Source: a virus. From it: 22,148 nucleotides of DNA. The position numbers and the translations under genes are program-made. Under the pieces are notes generated by a model. The model saw only the letters and a program-made list of their open reading frames with translations. It ran no database searches and was not told the origin of the DNA. Location: positions 1 to 22,148 of the IMG/VR virus record IMGVR_UViG_3300031841_005152, one strand, 5' to 3'. The stretch's first letter is position 1. Each line of letters begins with the position of its first letter. Shown here one piece after another: positions 1-19,944 of this stretch.

Positions 1-1591
1 CTACTGGCATTGGATATGGGAATGGAACATAAGTCTCAACTGGTTGTACTGCGTAGATAAAAACTGATTGATTTCTACTACTATTTAATGGACCTAAGGA
101 AGGACCACCACGGCCATATCCAGGACTTGCCACTGGTGCCACATTTTTCCCACCTTGTGCTTTTGCTTGTGGGTTTATTATTTTTTCTGGATTTAGTGGA
201 CCAGAATCAAGATGTCCAATTATGTATTTTCTTCCGTCGGGACCAACAATTATTAGAGAATTTCCATATCCACTATTATATCCTTGATCATACTCCAAAA
301 ACTTTATTCCGCCTTGCAATTTAATTGGAGCACCAGATCTAATTGGATAATCAAATCCACCATGATTTCTACCTGCATATAGTCCATCACCCATTTCATA
401 TGAAGATAATGGTCTGCCATCAACAATAATGTTTGATAGAATATTATTTGGTATCTCACCATGAGAACCACTGTATCCATCACCAGTTTCTATATGGATG
501 TGTGGTCCAGTAGATTTTCCAGTGCTTCCAACATGTCCAACTATTTCATCGGTAATAACTCCCGAAGTGGATAATGGTGAATTAGAACCACGAGAACCAG
601 GACCGGGACCAGGACCAGGACCAGGACCTGGAGAAGTAGGAGAAGTTGTTGTAATTCCAGATCTAAGTCCTCTATCCTTTTTCAGAACATCAGCATATAA
701 TAATATATTCTTCTCGTGTTCTTTTGTAACATCAATAATTTTATCAACTGCTATTGGAAAATTGGTAAATCCACTATTTGCATCTCTTTGAGCTTTCTTA
801 CCCTCCGGTGATTGACGACTTTTTTGTGGTTGATATGCTTGTCTTTCCGAAAGTTTTTCAGGAGTGCTTTTTACTGTTCCACCACGATTAAATGATTGTA
901 CTGGGTTTTTTGCCGTTATTGGTTGAGTTGACTCTGGTTTTTGTGTATCTGAAGGTTCTTTGGGTTCTTTGGGTTCTTTGGGTGTAACTGTCCTATCAGG
1001 TTCTGATTGAGGAGATTCGATAGATTGCTCCGGTTCATTATCTTCTACACTCTGCCCCAAAAGTTTTTCAAGATTAATTATATCTCTCTCAGCACGATCC
1101 GCATTTTTTATATCTTCATCAATTATTTTATTAGTTTCATCGGCATCTTTTTTAATTTTATCTTGTTCGGATTTAGGAAACAATCCCACAAACTGTGCGA
1201 GTTGTAAAATGCCATTTCCTATAAATCCTAAAACATTACCAACACCCTTTATAAAATCACTATTGAAAAAATCTTCTACCTGTTTAAGAATAATAGGAAG
1301 ATTTTGAATCAGTATGCCAGCGGCAATTAATCCAAAAAATTCCAAAATTCGATCAAAAATACCCTTTACTGGAGAAGTAATTGTGCTCGCAATTTTGGAA
1401 AATCCAGATCCTATACCAAGATTTTTACTTTCTAATCTACCTTCTTCTTCTCTTAATGTTCTTTTTTTATCTAATCTCGAAAATAAATTAGTTTTATCCT
1501 TTTCTATTTTCTTTAATTCTTTATTATTAGAAAATAAAGAATTTTTTATATTGGTGACATTAAGTTTGAGTTTTTCTACTTGTTGTTCCAT
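1..1591 (-). CDS. Virion structural protein with permuted M23-type peptidase domain (3' end outside window)
   Basis: The frame is open from an ATG at 1591 to the left edge, about 530 residues, with no stop seen. The N-terminus (about 1-60) is charged and coiled-coil-like. Residues 73-93 (SPVKGIFDRILEFFGLI...) form an amphipathic or hydrophobic segment almost copied from the gene upstream. A low-complexity linker follows (three KEP repeats, then a run of PG dipeptides near 325-340). The C-terminal part has M23 metallopeptidase motifs: GSTGKSTGPHIHIE near 353-366, HGGFD near 409-413 and GYGNSLIIV...GHL near 440-461. The zinc-ligand order is therefore HxH first and HxxxD later, the reverse of lysostaphin-type enzymes. 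It lies 11 bp after the tape-measure-like gene, so it is probably a tail tip or hub component that cuts cell wall during injection (inference). An inactive M23-like structural fold is the alternative. Confidence 0.8.
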   Translation of the reverse strand, partial: MEQQVEKLKLNVTNIKNSLFSNNKELKKIEKDKTNLFSRLDKKRTLREEEGRLESKNLGIGSGFSKIASTITSPVKGIFDRILEFFGLIAAGILIQNLPIILKQVEDFFNSDFIKGVGNVLGFIGNGILQLAQFVGLFPKSEQDKIKKDADETNKIIDEDIKNADRAERDIINLEKLLGQSVEDNEPEQSIESPQSEPDRTVTPKEPKEPKEPSDTQKPESTQPITAKNPVQSFNRGGTVKSTPEKLSERQAYQPQKSRQSPEGKKAQRDANSGFTNFPIAVDKIIDVTKEHEKNILLYADVLKKDRGLRSGITTTSPTSPGPGPGPGPGPGSRGSNSPLSTSGVITDEIVGHVGSTGKSTGPHIHIETGDGYSGSHGEIPNNILSNIIVDGRPLSSYEMGDGLYAGRNHGGFDYPIRSGAPIKLQGGIKFLEYDQGYNSGYGNSLIIVGPDGRKYIIGHLDSGPLNPEKIINPQAKAQGGKNVAPVASPGYGRGGPSLGPLNSSRNQSVFIYAVQPVETYVPFPYPMPV

Positions 1592-1602
1592 TGTTTATCT
1601 CC

Positions 1603-3657
1603 TTATACCATAATACCATAAAGTTCTGGTACAAATAACATCCAAGGATTTGCAACATTAGATGAAGGTACAGATTCAACACCAGTTGCAGGACTCTGCA
1701 TTTGTGGAATTTGTGGTGGTTTTGATCTCTGTGGGGGCATCATCATTGGCAAGAAAGTCATTCCACCACCAGATGAAGATGGAGGTGTCATATTAACAGA
1801 AGCAATTTTTGGTTGTTTGGAAGTAACATCTTTAGAAGAAAATCCACCTCTACCAGTCAATCTAAATGCCGAACCTCCTCCACCAATTCCACCAGTTCCA
1901 GAAGATATTTTTTCAGTCTTTAGATTTCTTAAGTAATTATCATGATCCTCTAAAGTATCGGCAAATTCTTTCTGAACATCTTCTTGATACTTGGAAACCA
2001 TCATAAGTTTATTAATTCCCATCGTAAATAGTTCCCATAATCTTCCGGCATTATCATTAATATCTTTCAGAAGTGGTCTGAATAACATCGCAGATGCTGT
2101 TCTTATAACTTCTTCTCCTGGAGCAAGCCTTGCGGATACAGTATCAACATTACCAGATCCTCTTCCAGGAACTGTCATTCCGTTTGATGCGAATATTGGA
2201 CTTCCAGGAACTGTTCCACCACGATTAAATTTGGCAGGATCTACACTATCAGGATCAACTTTTCCTGTTTTTGTTGCATCTTTTTGTTGTTGTTCGGCAA
2301 CACCTTTTGAACTACTGTTTCCGAAGAATAAGTCATAAAGTTGTCTGCCTGCCCAGTCACCGGCAAGACCACCAATAAATGTTCCAATTGGACCACCCAA
2401 GAATGTTCCAATCGCACCAAGAAGTGCGGCACCAATTGCACCAAATGCCGCTCTACCAATATTTTCACCCATAGCCACCGATAAGGCAAAATCAATCAGT
2501 GCTCCAACAATTGGAATTCTTTTTAAAATTGGTCTGGCAAACTTTAAAAGTGATTTGACTAATGTTTTCTTTCCTGGACCGGCACCAAGAACTTTAAGGA
2601 AATTTCTCCCGAACATTTTTCCCTTAACTTCAAGTCCTTGAAGTGTTCTATTAAATAGATTTTTTTGTCTTGTTATAACCTCTACATTTTCTTTTATGGC
2701 ACCACCTGCCACATTAAATCTTCCAGGAACAACCCTTGATTGAATTTCTCTACCTACAGTAAGACCTCTTCTTTGACCTGCCGTATTTCTAAATAATCCT
2801 CCACCTCTCCTGGCAGTATCTGCACCAGCACCAGCACCAGCAGAGGTTGATGCAGCAGATCTAAGACCAAATAACTGTAAAATTCTGCCAGGAAGTCTCC
2901 ATAAAAATCTTCCTATTCTAAATAATCTTCTTCCCCATTTAAATATCTTATATCCTAATAATCCAACTACCAGATAAGGAATTGTAGTCCCAATAAAATT
3001 AAAAATATCACCCAATAACTTTTGATTTTTTTTATCTGCTAACCAGGTAAAGGCAACATTTGTAATAATGCCAGTGAGTATTAAACCAAAAAATTCTTTT
3101 ATTCTATCAAAAATTCCTTTAACTGGTGCGGCAACTTTGCTAATTGTTCCGGTGATTCCGCCACTAATTTTTTTAACTGCCTCTACAGATTTTTCTTTAG
3201 CAGAAAATTTTCTCTTTGATTCTGCTTTCCTTATATTTGCAATTTCTTTTTTTTCTTTTGCAATTCTAGAAGAATAGTCTAATAAAAGTTGTTCCTGTAT
3301 TTCTACAAGAATTTTATTTGTTTCTACAAGAGTCTGTTCAAAAGGAGTTTTTTCTTTTCTTAGATGTTTTGGATCTACGTTAGAACCACTACGAATACTC
3401 CCATATCCCATTCCTTTCGGAACTTTTATTACTTCTGTAGAAATCTTTTCAACTATCTTTGGTTTTTCTTCTACGACATTTGTAATTGCTTCAATTCGTT
3501 CAATATCTTTAGGTTTTGTATTAAAGACTACCCTTGAAATATTACTAACATTTAACTTTGGTGCAGAAACACTGGCACCTCTACCAGTAAAAGAAGAGGA
3601 AGATATTTTATTACTTTTAATTGCTGGTGCCGTGAAAAGTTGGGAACTAAATTCCAT
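1603..3657 (-). CDS. Tail tape-measure-like protein (T4 gp29 position)
   Basis: A 684-residue protein starting at the ATG at 3657, overlapping the preceding ORF by 11 bp; an AAAGG lies 12 bases upstream. Residues 105-165 are charged and helical. Residues 178-200 and 222-240 are hydrophobic, and a Gly/Ala-rich hydrophobic stretch lies near 375-440 (IPIVGALIDFALSVAMG..., GAIGTFLGGPIGTFIGG). Near 480-515 is the GG-x-VPG...GSGNVDTVSARLAPGEEVI pattern, a motif common near the C-terminus of tape-measure proteins. The C-terminus is Pro/Met/Gln-rich. The order gp26, small ORF, this gene mirrors tail chaperones followed by tape measure in other tailed phages, which supports the call more than any direct gp29 similarity. 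T4 gp29 is 590 residues, a comparable length. The role would be setting tail length and organising the baseplate hub. Confidence 0.72.
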   Translation of the reverse strand: MEFSSQLFTAPAIKSNKISSSSFTGRGASVSAPKLNVSNISRVVFNTKPKDIERIEAITNVVEEKPKIVEKISTEVIKVPKGMGYGSIRSGSNVDPKHLRKEKTPFEQTLVETNKILVEIQEQLLLDYSSRIAKEKKEIANIRKAESKRKFSAKEKSVEAVKKISGGITGTISKVAAPVKGIFDRIKEFFGLILTGIITNVAFTWLADKKNQKLLGDIFNFIGTTIPYLVVGLLGYKIFKWGRRLFRIGRFLWRLPGRILQLFGLRSAASTSAGAGAGADTARRGGGLFRNTAGQRRGLTVGREIQSRVVPGRFNVAGGAIKENVEVITRQKNLFNRTLQGLEVKGKMFGRNFLKVLGAGPGKKTLVKSLLKFARPILKRIPIVGALIDFALSVAMGENIGRAAFGAIGAALLGAIGTFLGGPIGTFIGGLAGDWAGRQLYDLFFGNSSSKGVAEQQQKDATKTGKVDPDSVDPAKFNRGGTVPGSPIFASNGMTVPGRGSGNVDTVSARLAPGEEVIRTASAMLFRPLLKDINDNAGRLWELFTMGINKLMMVSKYQEDVQKEFADTLEDHDNYLRNLKTEKISSGTGGIGGGGSAFRLTGRGGFSSKDVTSKQPKIASVNMTPPSSSGGGMTFLPMMMPPQRSKPPQIPQMQSPATGVESVPSSNVANPWMLFVPELYGIMV

Positions 3658-3826
3658 TCTGTTGCTGCGCCTTTAGATTTTCTTCCTCAATATATTGTTC
3701 AAGTAAAGTGAGATAAATATCTTTCTCCCACGGAATCATATTTTCTAACTCTGTTAATGAATATTTATGGTGTTGCATCAAGGCAAAATTAACCTTATAG
3801 TATGACTCAAGATTAGTATGAGCCAT
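3647..3826 (-). CDS. gp51-like small tail/hub assembly protein
   Basis: The ATG at 3826 gives 59 residues (MAHTNLESYYKVNFALMQHH...). The frame is also open upstream through a TTG at 3832. The protein is helical and ends in an acidic/Gln tail; the pattern NFALMQHHKYSLTELENMIPWE is of the type found in short myophage proteins encoded right after gp26. No good ribosome binding site precedes the ATG, so expression probably depends on coupling to gp26 or on a -1 frameshift from gp26 at 3835-3841, which enters exactly this frame. It is much shorter than T4 gp51 (249 residues), so the gp51 label rests on position. By analogy with lambda T it may act as the C-terminal half of a tail assembly chaperone that binds the tape measure (inference). 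Confidence 0.72.
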   Translation of the reverse strand: MAHTNLESYYKVNFALMQHHKYSLTELENMIPWEKDIYLTLLEQYIEEENLKAQQQNGI

Positions 3827-3828
3827 AC

Positions 3829-4551
3829 TCAACTGAAAAAACTTGCCAGTCCCTCCAGAACAACTTCAGATTCAACTCCAGTGTTTGGATTTTTGACCTT
3901 AATTTTATGAGAGAGTTTTGGCATCGTTGTAAAGAACTTTTCAATTTCCTTAAACTGCTTCGTATTCAGTTGTTCAACAAACTCATCAAGTTCTTTTTTG
4001 GTACAATCTGCCGCTTCCCAACTTTCTTCCTCATTATAAATCATCTCAATACAAGATGTAATCATCGAGAGTGATTGATTTACTTCACTGTTTGTTCCCG
4101 ATACTTCGAAGTTATTTTCAATAAATTGATCGAGAGATGGATACTTAAGTTTCATCATAAGATTATCATCAAGTTTGATAATATTCTTATGTCCTCTGGT
4201 TTTATGAACTTTGATGGAATCGATTTCGATTTCCATCTCAACTTTAGTTTCCCCATCATCGGGACAAGTCACATTGACTTCTACTGTCTCACCAACGGAC
4301 TTAGAACGAACATTTAAGAAAAGGTATTCAATATCAAAAGTCGCAAGAGATTCAACCTTGACATCTTTTGAAAGAATACAATCTCCAATAATTTGAACGA
4401 TGGCATCGGTCATCTGTTTCATATCTTCAGATTCCATTGCCATAATCAGAATTTTTTCTTCTCTGACTAAAAATGGACGATATTTAATCTTTTTTCCACT
4501 TGAAGGTAATACCAACTCATAGGTTGGAGTATTAATCTTGGGTAAAGGCAT
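3829..4551 (-). CDS. 26: Baseplate hub subunit gp26
   Basis: A 240-residue protein starting at the ATG at 4551. The N-terminus (MPLPKINTPTYELVLPSSGK followed by KIKYRPFLVREEKIL) is the hallmark of the T4 gp26 baseplate family; T4 gp26 is 208 residues. Residues 40-75 resemble the rest of that family, and an acidic Glu-rich stretch lies near 160-190. In T4, gp26 helps assemble the central hub around gp29. The gene lies between a tail-tube-fold protein and a gp51-like ORF, with a GATAAATA late-promoter-like motif 27-34 bases upstream of the start. No strong ribosome binding site is visible before the ATG. The last codons carry a slippery run, so a longer frameshifted form is possible. Confidence 0.88.
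   Translation of the reverse strand: MPLPKINTPTYELVLPSSGKKIKYRPFLVREEKILIMAMESEDMKQMTDAIVQIIGDCILSKDVKVESLATFDIEYLFLNVRSKSVGETVEVNVTCPDDGETKVEMEIEIDSIKVHKTRGHKNIIKLDDNLMMKLKYPSLDQFIENNFEVSGTNSEVNQSLSMITSCIEMIYNEEESWEAADCTKKELDEFVEQLNTKQFKEIEKFFTTMPKLSHKIKVKNPNTGVESEVVLEGLASFFS
3835..3856 (-). promoter_or_regulatory. Candidate programmed -1 frameshift site at the end of gp26
   Basis: On the minus strand gp26 reads AGT TTT TTC AGT TGA. The heptamer T TTT TTC (3841-3835) is in the X XXY YYZ phase for -1 slippage. After slippage the frame continues CAG TTG AGT ATG GCT into the downstream small ORF. A Shine-Dalgarno-like GGAGGG (3856-3851) lies 9 bases before the heptamer, similar to the stimulator in bacterial dnaX. 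The predicted fusion is about 301 residues (239 from gp26, one Gln, 61 from the next ORF). Confidence 0.6.
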
Positions 4552-4601: not shown

Positions 4602-5318
4602 CTAAGAACGGGGGTTTTTATTCTCATTCCCCGTAGGGAGTTCTCCGTAAATAGTATCTCCTTTACCAGGATCTTGAACTACAACATCCGGAATATCAAC
4701 ATAGTTCATAAGATAACGATCATAGTTAAAACTTACATTCACTTTAAGTAAATCGGCAGGACCATAAGAGATTGGACTAACTGTCATTCCTTTTGGAAAT
4801 GCATTAATAAAAGTATACTCTAATCTACTTCTAATATCTCTCTCAAATTTTGTAATTTTCATTTTAGAAACTTTATAAGAGTCCGGATATGCCATTTTTC
4901 TAAAATATCCAGGTGATTTCGAAATATTAAACTGTGATATTTCTCCAGCACCAGAAATATAATCCATCCATCCCTCAAAAAACTTTATAGATTCATATTT
5001 CCCATCCACATAGAAAGTAAAATCTATATCGGCATAAAGTCGAGTATGAGCAAATTCTTGTGTCACCCCAAGAAAATTATCCTTGACCTCTGCGGTTGCA
5101 TATGATGATGTTGGTAATGATGCCTCTGAACAGAGAAGACCCAGTTTTCTTTCCGGAAACGTTTTATCAGATAATCTGGCATACTTTGTCATATGATTAC
5201 TCAAATCAGTGCTAATTGCTTTGCCAGTCGGTATTTCGACCAAATAATAATTATTAAGTGCGGGATTTCCAATTAATTCCCTGGCTTCCTTTATTGATTT
5301 GACAAGATTATTTGCCAC
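4602..5318 (-). CDS. Tail-tube-fold baseplate protein (gp54/gp19-like)
   Basis: The start is GTG at 5318 (GTG GCA AAT AAT); an in-frame TAG lies just upstream, so 238 residues is the full length. The pattern NNYYLVEIPTG near 19, LLCSEASLPTSSYATAEV near 61-78, FAHTRLYADIDFTFYVDG near 88-106 and FFEGWMDYISG near 113-123 fits the T4 gp19 tube fold, shared by tail tube gp19 and baseplate tube initiator gp54. Its place among hub genes and its length (T4 gp54 is 320, gp19 is 163) favour a gp54-type tube initiator, but a second tube protein cannot be excluded. The last 20 residues are polar and disordered-looking. It is transcribed first in the minus-strand tail block, probably from the CTAAATA motif at 5353-5359. 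Confidence 0.7.
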   Translation of the reverse strand: MANNLVKSIKEARELIGNPALNNYYLVEIPTGKAISTDLSNHMTKYARLSDKTFPERKLGLLCSEASLPTSSYATAEVKDNFLGVTQEFAHTRLYADIDFTFYVDGKYESIKFFEGWMDYISGAGEISQFNISKSPGYFRKMAYPDSYKVSKMKITKFERDIRSRLEYTFINAFPKGMTVSPISYGPADLLKVNVSFNYDRYLMNYVDIPDVVVQDPGKGDTIYGELPTGNENKNPRS

Positions 5319-16183: not shown

Positions 16184-18076
16184 TTATTCTTCATCTTTGA
16201 TTCTAACATACACTTGATTGTATCCAAGATTAACATCCTTTTCATATCCAATATCATTCATATATTTTTCATAGTCTAATTTATTCTGATAATTTTCCAA
16301 AACAATTACCTTTGGTTTATATTTTACATGATTAAATCCCTGAAGCACTTCCATTTCCCATCCCTCAACATCGATGGAAAGAATATCAATAGATTTGGCA
16401 TCTATTTTTTTAAGAAGAGTGTCTAATTTTATTGTTTTAACTTCTATGGTTTCTTGAGTATTATGTTTTGGAACTCCTTCATATCTAATTCCAAGTGAAG
16501 AAAAACTGACTCCATCATTTTCTTCAGAATACCAATCATCATTATTTAAATTAACAGTAAATTTTGACTTTCCGTTTTTGTTATAACAGGCATACTGATA
16601 TATTTCACTTCCCTCTTTTTGATGTTGCTCAACAAATTTGGGATTTGGATCGACACAAATTGTTCTCCAACCATTATTTCTAAAATGTTTAGAAGAACTA
16701 ATGAATGTTGGTGGACCAGCACCAACTTCAACCATAGTTCCCTGATAAGAAAAATCAGAGAAGAATTTTGTTCTTATATATCGATCTGTTTCAAATTCTG
16801 CATAATAATCTCCAGAGAACATATAATCATCAACTTTATTAATCTTATCAGATTTATCACTCATCATGTTAAGTATATTTTCATCCACAAAATCTGGATG
16901 AACCCACCAGTCTTCAAATGGTGTTTTATCATCTGGAGATATGTCACCAACAACCATGACATACCCCTTCGACTTCAAATACTCTCTAGATTTTTCTCTA
17001 TATGATTTATAGTTACTATTGTAAAAATCATGTTCATACGTGATCACTCTAAATTTATATTTGTCAAAAGGAATTTTCAAAAGCACTTCATAAGTTGCAT
17101 CTGGAGGATCAATATCTAATTGAAGATAATCAATAACTTCATCCTTATAATACTCATTTATTAATTGACTATAATCTATTTTAGTGGCATCGGCACAAAT
17201 TGTACTGGTTTTTTTACGTGCTTCACGATACTGCTTAGAAAATTCTTCATTAAATTCTATTGAGACACCACACCAACCAAAACCTTCTTCCAAAAGAGCA
17301 GTATTATTTCCAAAGTAAGGTCTCGATCCTCCAATTTCAAGAAAACATCCATTTCTTTTTCCATTTAACATAGAAAGAACAAACAAATCTTGATAGACCT
17401 GAGCATAATTTTTTTCAATATTTTCAGATCCAGAAAATTTATATCTCAAGGAATTCAGTTTTTCTTTATTATATGGAATTGGATCATGCCAAACATAATT
17501 TTCATTTTTAATCCTACCCTTAAATAATCTTTCAATATTACTATCAACAGCTTGCATATGTATAGTATCAATGTGATACTCCGTTTTTAGTTTTTGATGA
17601 AGAGTGCAGGACTCATCACACAATCCACAATGCCATGCTGAGACAGCTTTTTCAAAAACAATCCCATAAAATCCGGGATATCCAACATCAATTTCCAATG
17701 ATTCACAATTTTTATCACATATTTTTTCACCTATTGATGCAATTAAGTATGAATCTTGATAATTCTTTTCTCTCTCATAAAATCTAGAAAGAAGAAAGTA
17801 ACCTTCTGGTCTAGATGGAAGCATTGATATTGCATTTTTTAACATTCCCCTCACAGAATTACTACGACAACCCTGAAGGTCAAAGCAATTTGCCGCAGCC
17901 AATAAACATGTGTATGCAAGTTTTTGATCTTCGGTTCTTTCAGATGTTCTAATGTAATATGAAACTGCAGAAGCAGTTTGATCTATAGAAAAATAATAAT
18001 TTCCAAGTTGAAAATTAATATCAGGATCTTCTGGGTTTTTGATAAAACCATTCAGAAGTTTTTGTAAGTCATTCAT
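16184..18076 (-). CDS. TPR-like protein with two FkbM-type methyltransferase domains
   Basis: A 630-residue protein from the ATG at 18076, coupled to the upstream gene by ATGA. Residues 1-190 are helical repeats of TPR type (INFQLGNYYFSIDQTASAVS; RPEGYFLLSRFYEREKNYQD; AVSAWHCGLCDESC). Residues 222-400 are a first FkbM-like fold: QVYQDLFVLSMLNGK, GCFLEIGG near 243-250, GWCGVSIEFN, DYLQLDIDPPD near 316-326. Residues 435-630 are a second: GTMVEVGAGPP near 445-455, GWRTICVDPNPKFV, IKLDTLL near 548, DILSIDVEGWEMEVLQGF near 565-582. Both keep a plausible SAM-binding glycine loop. FkbM enzymes are O-methyltransferases, often acting on sugars or polyketides. The pairing with a propeller-radical SAM enzyme suggests a glycan-modifying unit (inference). 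Confidence 0.82.
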   Translation of the reverse strand: MNDLQKLLNGFIKNPEDPDINFQLGNYYFSIDQTASAVSYYIRTSERTEDQKLAYTCLLAAANCFDLQGCRSNSVRGMLKNAISMLPSRPEGYFLLSRFYEREKNYQDSYLIASIGEKICDKNCESLEIDVGYPGFYGIVFEKAVSAWHCGLCDESCTLHQKLKTEYHIDTIHMQAVDSNIERLFKGRIKNENYVWHDPIPYNKEKLNSLRYKFSGSENIEKNYAQVYQDLFVLSMLNGKRNGCFLEIGGSRPYFGNNTALLEEGFGWCGVSIEFNEEFSKQYREARKKTSTICADATKIDYSQLINEYYKDEVIDYLQLDIDPPDATYEVLLKIPFDKYKFRVITYEHDFYNSNYKSYREKSREYLKSKGYVMVVGDISPDDKTPFEDWWVHPDFVDENILNMMSDKSDKINKVDDYMFSGDYYAEFETDRYIRTKFFSDFSYQGTMVEVGAGPPTFISSSKHFRNNGWRTICVDPNPKFVEQHQKEGSEIYQYACYNKNGKSKFTVNLNNDDWYSEENDGVSFSSLGIRYEGVPKHNTQETIEVKTIKLDTLLKKIDAKSIDILSIDVEGWEMEVLQGFNHVKYKPKVIVLENYQNKLDYEKYMNDIGYEKDVNLGYNQVYVRIKDEE

Positions 18077-19908
18077 TTTGGATCAACTCCATTTATACAA
18101 AATCTACAAAGATTAAAGCAACTGTTATCTTTTGGAATTACATCCTCAAAACTTTGATCTAACAAATTGCCTAATATGTGTTCAAGATTATAGTCTTGGC
18201 AACACAAAGAAACATCACCATTAGGAAGAACCACATTATGATAGAGTTTTTCCAGACATCCACATGTTTTTTCTTTTTCTCCGTGATAAAACGATTTATA
18301 TTGATCTTTTTTATTCAATAACTCCGGTTTTAAAATACTTTCACGGGATAAATTTCCAGCTCTGTCCCACATATCATGAACGTGAGCCTTAGAAAAAACA
18401 TGACTGACAGAATCATGAACTTCACCCATAGCTACTACATTAAAGTTTTGTATTTTATCACGAAGTTCTCCAAATCTTTCAACGACTTTAATATATCGAT
18501 CTGTTATGGGATGCTTCGCATTTCTTTCTCTATCGGGAAGATGAAAAGTAAATCCCCCATTTGGTTCTCCGGCAAAAGGAATATCTTTAATTCTTTCAAT
18601 ATCATCCAATTTCATTCCTATTCCTGTAGTAAAAACAGAAACTGGATGTCCCATTTCATGAGCATATAAAAGCATGTCAGTACAATTTGGATTCAACCAA
18701 GGTTCAGTAAATCCTGCAAATGTAATTCTGACTTCCTTTGGTATTTTATCAATACACTTTTTAAAGTTATCAAGACTCAAAAATCTTTCACCTTTATAAG
18801 ATTTTTGAAGAGTTCTTTGTGGGCAGAATACACAATCAACAACACATCCGGTTTCGGTATTAATCGAAGTTGTAAATTCCATTGTTGGGAATGGAGTTTT
18901 TTTCCAATCATCATTTCGTTTTACTTTCAAATCCCCAAACATTTCTTCAAGAACTTTTTCATGAAACTTGAGAAGGTAAGCAGCATTATCTTGAAACCCG
19001 AAAGTCATTAAGAAATCATCTTCTTTTTGCGCCAATCCAATACAGAACTCTACATGACCTCCCATGATTGAGAAAGGATCTGTCCATTTAATAAGATTAA
19101 ATTCTTTATCCCAAAGTAAAAATCTATGTGTATAAACGGCATCTTTTCTGCCAGTTTCACTTTTAAATAATGAAACATCATGAGTGACTGCAACATAATA
19201 ATCTTTCCAAGGAATAAGTTGCGATCCTCCACGAGTATCTGCACCAATGCGTGGACTTTTTTCTAAGAATACAGTTTCGGAAGTTCCAGTTTCCGGATTC
19301 ACCTTGACAACTTCCGTTGGATTTGACCACTTAACATAGTGATATGGTTTATCTAAAACTGGCATCCAATTTTTTTCACAATATGAATTTGGATTATTTG
19401 GAGGTTCAATTCTAACTCTAGAAAGTTCCTTTACCTCATCCTCACGAATATCAATCTCGCACAATTCCATGCGTCCAGTTCCTTTGGTATCAAGATCTCT
19501 CCTAACACCAGAAGTATACATTTTTCCTTCCCACTCAAATATGCGGGCATCCTCAAGACCAACAAATTCCCAAAGTTCTTTCTCCGGAAAACTTGATGTG
19601 TCTATTTTAGTAATGCGAGAAATATTATATTTATCATCTAGTTCCAGATAATAATTCCAAGTTCTCAATTTAATATCATTCTCTGGATGAAGATAAGTCA
19701 AAGGACCATACGGATGTTGAAAAATCTTTTTTTCTGAATGATAAAATGTATAGTTTACGGCTCTTAAAATTACAATTAATTTGCCATTGTGATTTAAAAT
19801 CGATGGGTTCATCAATCCCAATCCCTGATTCATATAAGCAGGGATAATTAATGGTTTTATAATTCCACCATGACTCAATACAGTTTGTGCAAAATTCATA
19901 TATCCCAT
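18073..19908 (-). CDS. Beta-propeller (GH43/GH130-like) fused to radical SAM/SPASM domain
   Basis: About 611 residues from the ATG at 19908 (a later ATG at 19899 is possible). Residues 1-335 look like a five-bladed propeller of the GH43/GH130 type: LGLMNPSILNHNGKLIVILR near 30-50, VGLEDARIFEWEGKMYTSGV near 113-132, RGGSQLIPWKDYYVAVTHDV near 227-246 and HVEFCIGL. Around 350-365 is C-VVD-C-VF-C, the CX3CX2C iron-sulphur motif of radical SAM enzymes, followed by a barrel-like region. The C-terminus has CGCLEKLYHNVVLPNGDVSL, CC, and CFNLCRFC, a SPASM-type auxiliary cluster domain. SPASM enzymes mature peptides or modify sugars; the propeller suggests a glycan substrate. It ends with ATGA into the methyltransferase gene. 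The combination is unusual to me. Confidence 0.78.
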   Translation of the reverse strand: MGYMNFAQTVLSHGGIIKPLIIPAYMNQGLGLMNPSILNHNGKLIVILRAVNYTFYHSEKKIFQHPYGPLTYLHPENDIKLRTWNYYLELDDKYNISRITKIDTSSFPEKELWEFVGLEDARIFEWEGKMYTSGVRRDLDTKGTGRMELCEIDIREDEVKELSRVRIEPPNNPNSYCEKNWMPVLDKPYHYVKWSNPTEVVKVNPETGTSETVFLEKSPRIGADTRGGSQLIPWKDYYVAVTHDVSLFKSETGRKDAVYTHRFLLWDKEFNLIKWTDPFSIMGGHVEFCIGLAQKEDDFLMTFGFQDNAAYLLKFHEKVLEEMFGDLKVKRNDDWKKTPFPTMEFTTSINTETGCVVDCVFCPQRTLQKSYKGERFLSLDNFKKCIDKIPKEVRITFAGFTEPWLNPNCTDMLLYAHEMGHPVSVFTTGIGMKLDDIERIKDIPFAGEPNGGFTFHLPDRERNAKHPITDRYIKVVERFGELRDKIQNFNVVAMGEVHDSVSHVFSKAHVHDMWDRAGNLSRESILKPELLNKKDQYKSFYHGEKEKTCGCLEKLYHNVVLPNGDVSLCCQDYNLEHILGNLLDQSFEDVIPKDNSCFNLCRFCINGVDPK

Positions 19909-19944
19909 CAAAAAATATTTTGTATGATAAAATCACTTCTATAT

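Follow-up and report, generated by a model that had tools for sequence, protein, structure and literature searches.

The window analysed here is a stretch of viral DNA of 22,148 nucleotides (IMG/VR record IMGVR_UViG_3300031841_005152), and the source is a marine T4-like phage of the Kyanoviridae type. Its minus strand carries a homologue of T4 gp26, a short gp51-like reading frame that overlaps the gp26 end in the -1 frame and, around the junction of the two, a set of short sequence and structural elements:

4602..5318, minus strand: tail-tube-like protein upstream of gp26, in the position of gp48/gp54-type genes (PF23849, E 1.3e-18; phrog_45, E 9.8e-34)
3829..4551, minus strand: gp26 homologue, putative short tail-assembly chaperone (TAC-N), 240 aa (PF12322, E 3.3e-75; phrog_150, E 5e-82), stop codon TGA at 3831..3829
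3851..3856, minus strand: GGAGGG, a Shine-Dalgarno-like candidate 5' stimulator read from the sequence, with a 9-nt spacer to the heptamer
3835..3841, minus strand: slippery heptamer T TTT TTC in the gp26 phase (X XXY YYZ), conserved in relatives
3647..3835, minus strand: -1 frame extension (gp51-like, putative TAC-C), 62 aa plus stop (phrog_634, E 2.4e-29, and the C-terminal part of phrog_150)
3799..3829, minus strand: predicted 3' stem-loop of 11 bp with a 9-nt loop, starting 5 nt past the heptamer (arms 3829..3819 and 3809..3799)
1603..3657, minus strand: tape-measure-like ORF, 684 aa, directly 3' of the extension (weak match to phrog_167, tail length tape measure, E 2.6e-9)

In pelagiphage HTVC008M a large gene at a position comparable to that of the weakly matching 684-aa ORF is annotated as a putative tail tape measure. 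A second large ORF of at least 530 aa follows (window 2-1591, minus strand), which matches M23 peptidases and is possibly a tail lysin; the gene order of T4 differs here. Elsewhere on the minus strand, a gene (window 18073-19911) encodes 612 aa, with an unassigned N-terminal part and radical SAM and SPASM domains in the C-terminal half; it adjoins a gene (window 16184-18076) whose 630-aa product matches FkbM methyltransferases twice and begins with a weakly TPR-like segment. The phrog_634 family matched by the gp51-like extension is described as 'baseplate hub assembly catalyst', and the extension aligns in addition with the final ∼48 positions of phrog_150, which suggested that natural fusions occur among some members of that family.

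The end of gp26 on the minus strand reads CTG GAG GGA CTG GCA AGT TTT TTC AGT TGA GT ATG GCT CAT, so that a single sense codon (AGT) separates the heptamer from the TGA stop codon. From 34 nt before the gp26 stop to 182 nt after it the -1 frame contains no stop codon, and it joins the gp51-like ORF, whose stop lies at 3647; joining gp26 residues 1-239 to the extension would give a product of 301 aa (TAC-NC). The original prediction had pointed to an in-phase heptamer close to the gp26 stop, to GGAGGG nine bases upstream and to a -1 frame running on into the small downstream ORF, and all three are present as described. The window contains 29 copies of TTTTTTC against 19.6 expected, a difference that is not significant, and the frequency was dropped as evidence; the significance of the heptamer comes from its phase, position and conservation and from the elements that accompany it.

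A comparison of this junction among relatives, which had been proposed as a check, was carried out on 80 close and 80 more distant relatives, relatives from pelagiphages and Vibrio phages and 12 annotated isolates. Failure of relatives to keep the heptamer or the -1 phase would speak against a frameshift, and this outcome did not occur. Among the close relatives, T TTT TTC AGY and an open -1 frame are found in 80 of 80. Over all distinct junctions, T TTT TTC or T TTT TTT is present in phase in 147 of 152 (142 and five, respectively), including those of Kyanoviridae, pelagiphages, a Methylophilales phage, Vibrio and Aeromonas Straboviridae and Menderavirus. Three of the five exceptions come from Ackermannviridae-type phages; the other two are VPA32, a T4-type phage, and a contig with a broken gp26 frame (L097). 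In a group of pelagiphage-type and Methylophilales phages (L081, L082, L098, L101 and L103) the heptamer is T TTT TTT and is followed immediately by the stop codon. The Ackermannviridae-type sequences (L084 2492-3420, L086 2402-3405 and L089 2438-3402) have a gp51-like -1 ORF after gp26 and neither Phe-Phe nor T TTT TTY; since they lack a slippery site and two of them show a TAATG stop-start overlap, the mechanism there may be P-site slippage or coupled reinitiation.

The constraint on the heptamer extends to synonymous positions. Among genes ending in Phe-Phe, clustered at 80% nucleotide identity and with the expectation taken from the codon usage of each gene, the slippery T TTT is kept in 65 of 66 clusters (25.3 expected). 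The residue preceding Phe-Phe varies in these genes (Ser, Asn, Asp, Ala or Thr) and its codon always ends in T, and the second Phe codon is TTC in 63 of the 66 clusters, compared with 32% elsewhere. No synonymous differences were found at the two Phe codons among 63 close relatives, whereas the 78 codons before them have a mean synonymous rate of 0.35 and Phe codons elsewhere vary at 0.23-0.51.

The elements on either side of the heptamer have comparative support as well. The Glu codon that forms GGAGG is GAG in 53 of 59 clusters, compared with 30% elsewhere in the same genes. The stem-loop, which the original prediction had not included, is shared by most cyanophage relatives and has a minimum free energy of -18.2 kcal/mol over a 55-nt stretch (z = -4.5). 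Its covariation score over 82 distinct sequences is 0.127, compared with 0.089 in shuffles (0.127 was reached in none of 500, in a control that ignores the relatedness of the sequences) and with at most 0.066 in slid controls; one pair of the stem occurs as UA in 42 sequences, AU in 13, GU in two and GC in one. With a second control, in which the amino acids of the -1 frame were fixed and synonymous codons redrawn, the folding z averages -3.9 at the stem-loop across 86 clusters, compared with 0.1 to -0.4 in six neighbouring windows (four in gp26 and the two that come next in gp51) and -0.9 in the third gp51 window.

RNAalifold returned no consensus structure for the mixed set of 82 junctions, probably because different clades use different hairpins, and the named stem was therefore counted instead: at least eight of the ten counted pairs are kept in 78 of 106 distinct sequences, the others having different or weaker hairpins. 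Part of the sequences that depart from the long stem, mostly those with a TAG stop, show other hairpins. In one TAG-stop subgroup (L118, L160, L163, L168 and L182) short hairpins take the place of the long stem just past the gp26 stop, and these (GGTCC-ACAT-GGACC, GGTTC-ACAT-GAACC and GATCC-ATAT-GGATC) differ from one another by paired changes. Outside the cyanophages the structure is variable, being strong in a pelagiphage-type contig (L103, z = -4.8) and absent or weak in others. The window thus contains what is expected of a bacterial -1 frameshift cassette, namely an in-phase heptamer near the stop, a Shine-Dalgarno-like element ∼10 nt upstream and an RNA structure 5-9 nt downstream, but the last of these is absent from some relatives.

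The gp26 and gp51 proteins of T4 are known from genetics as hub-assembly chaperones (T4 tail assembly review, PMC3004832). PF12322 is common to the window gp26, T4 gp26 and T4 gp51; in T4 gp51 it covers residues 1-201 (E 3.9e-52), and phrog_150 covers nearly the whole length (E 2.6e-84). The extension in turn aligns with residues 207-245 of T4 gp51, i.e. its last ∼40 residues (33% identity, hhalign E 3.3e-5), and with residues 201-245 of VPA32 gp51 (hhalign E 8e-6). Both parts of the putative long product thus have counterparts in T4 gp51, the N-terminal part in the gp26 family and the extension in its C-terminus. These matches identify T4 gp51, as judged from sequence homology, as a gp26 paralogue fused to a TAC-C domain. 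T4 gp26 itself ends TTC TTT GAG TTA CTA and VPA32 gp26 has TTC TTC, and neither contains a slippery site, as expected if a two-gene arrangement replaced frameshifting. Genes 26 and 51 of T4 (L186 3803-5229) are divergent neighbours ∼50 bp apart that both carry PF12322, and the pair has the appearance of a single chaperone gene duplicated in inverted orientation. Beyond the marine group, most gp26 relatives have a CPxCG-type motif near the C-terminus (last 60 alignment columns), resembling half a zinc ribbon, that is absent from the gp26 proteins of marine cyanophages and pelagiphages.

An AlphaFold2 model of gp26 built from 48 sequences has a mean pLDDT of 88. A search of the PDB by sequence gave no real relative of gp26, and Foldseek found no significant match of the model in the PDB (2ob9 at E about 1, probability 0.75). 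The top chains obtained with VIA-align 2 were 3fgx (Z = 8.1), the HK97 tail-assembly chaperone 2ob9 (Z = 7.8) and YqbN 3klu (Z = 7.0), with the fourth at 4.9, all within residues 1-96 and to be read against a background of Z ∼8 stated for the tool. YqbN belongs to an XkdN-like TAC family. The predicted fold of gp26 residues 1-86 superimposes on HK97 gp13 over 84 residues, whereas the sequence identity is 14% and the further ∼150 residues of gp26 are unmatched. In the model the first ∼90 residues of gp26 thus resemble the HK97 tail-assembly chaperone, which is support for a chaperone role rather than proof of it.

This comparative evidence speaks strongly for the proposal that a programmed -1 frameshift fuses gp26 to the gp51-like domain, making the pair a counterpart of lambda G/GT. 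We consider it highly likely that the locus is a real and conserved -1 frameshift cassette for TAC-N and TAC-NC, for which slippage and the chaperone functions are inferred, and in marine T4-like phages the gp26 and gp51-like ORFs very probably make up a single chaperone gene with a frameshift. Most ribosomes would terminate at the TGA codon and yield TAC-N (240 aa), while a minority, with tRNA-Phe positioned on T TTT TTC, would slip back by a single base, enter the -1 frame and yield TAC-NC. Pairing of GGAGG with 16S rRNA 9 nt upstream would stimulate slippage, and the stem-loop 5 nt downstream may act as a second stimulator. If the two forms behave as gpG and gpGT of lambda do, TAC-N would cover the tape-measure protein, whose gene follows, and tail-tube subunits would be brought in by the TAC-C part. 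The model is based on the sequence, its phase, conservation and covariation, the homology of both halves to T4 gp51 and the N-terminal fold resemblance, and from these we infer slippage, its rate and the protein interactions.

A different account would have translation stop at gp26 and restart, by coupling alone, at the ATG two bases further on to make a separate gp51, with T TTT TTC being incidental. Of 123 distinct junctions, 103 do have an ATG at this place, 2 nt past the gp26 stop (a count that does not rely on the T7-run junctions L081 and L103), and gp51 is listed as a separate gene in databases, the isolate records examined annotating gp26 and gp51 as two CDSs. However, coupling gives no reason why the heptamer, its phase and the T-ending codon ahead of Phe-Phe should be so strictly kept, nor does it account for the stem-loop. 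The ATG lies within the 5' arm of the stem, a feature that had also escaped the original prediction, whose statement that the downstream ORF has no ribosome-binding site of its own holds more widely: a Shine-Dalgarno-like tetramer is absent 5-15 nt before the first downstream ATG, both in the window and in all 114 distinct junctions that have an ATG there. Moreover, one group (L115, L138, L158, L164 and L166) has no ATG before the conserved gp51 core, and T4 carries the TAC-C domain fused to a gp26-like part. Coupling alone is thus very unlikely. Frameshifting to TAC-NC could also be accompanied by reinitiation that yields some free TAC-C, which is a sub-case of the frameshift explanation and not exclusive of it. 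A conserved ATG right after the stop, together with all the frameshift signals, would fit such a dual output, but the ATG has no Shine-Dalgarno sequence and is not universal, and we know of no lambda-type system that needs free TAC-C; we consider it rather unlikely. Somewhat more speculative, and improbable as it stands, is the idea that the Kyanoviridae junction is a tripartite signal (GGAGG, T TTT TTC and a covarying stem-loop with the gp51 ATG in the stem) that would set both frameshifting and the suppression or gating of reinitiation, giving TAC-N, TAC-NC and free TAC-C in a fixed ratio.

The long form could alternatively arise by transcriptional rather than ribosomal slippage on the T6 run, as runs of T6 or T7 can cause slippage of RNA polymerase. 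This would leave unexplained the in-phase TTT TTC pair and the placement of the Shine-Dalgarno-like element and stem-loop at ribosomal distances, making it extremely unlikely. The T-run might also merely follow from a C-terminus that conserves Phe-Phe and from codon usage rich in A+T, Phe-Phe being nearly invariant and TTTTTTC frequent in the window. This is already contradicted by the excess of T TTT over the expectation from the genes' own usage and by the absence of synonymous change at the Phe-Phe codons, and its probability is negligible.

The ribosomal frameshift favoured here differs from that of lambda G/GT in that the window phage is contractile-tailed, no sequence relation being expected, and the lambda heptamer is not T TTT TTC. 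A study of tail chaperones in the T4-like group (Vladimirov, Gautam & Davidson 2022, Virology 566:9-15) reportedly names genes 26 and 51 in its abstract and describes frameshifting as retained by several sets of these phages. Long-tailed phages in general use lambda-type -1 frameshifting for the chaperone of the tape-measure protein, and T4 was still called the exception in 2016 (PMC5009743). The original prediction had taken frameshifting to be undescribed for T4-like gp26/gp51, a claim that does not stand in view of the 2022 work as cited for these points in two later papers. The PRFect paper cites it for T4-like phages that do without frameshifting and carry one gene for the short form and a second, fused gene for the long form (PMC10885494), and the phage Adele paper cites it for poly-T signals that cause frameshifting within the TAC-N genes of this phage group (PMC12846349). 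As conveyed by these citing papers, the chaperones of that study share with the window the gp26/gp51 family, the short and long products and, in some phages, a poly-T -1 site in TAC-N, while other phages have separate short and fused genes. The TAC locus of Vandenendeviridae/Andersonviridae, described with phage Adele, also has a conserved poly-T (GTTTTT) -1 frameshift between TAC-N and TAC-C; the phage families and the slippery sequence are different (PMC12846349).

A literature search found no description of a 3' stem-loop or of GGAGG in cyanophages, which is weak evidence of absence given the limited collection searched, and the comparative evidence for 5' and 3' stimulators may be new. The principle, as far as the citing papers convey it, was published in 2022, and what is added here is comparative evidence of selection on the slippery codons and of stimulators on both sides of a site that is directly testable. 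The T4 pair of genes 26 and 51, homologous to the locus described here and differing from it in being two separate divergent genes, with gp51 already fused and gp26 without a slippery site, then appears as the version of the same chaperone in which the gene is split and the long form is already fused.
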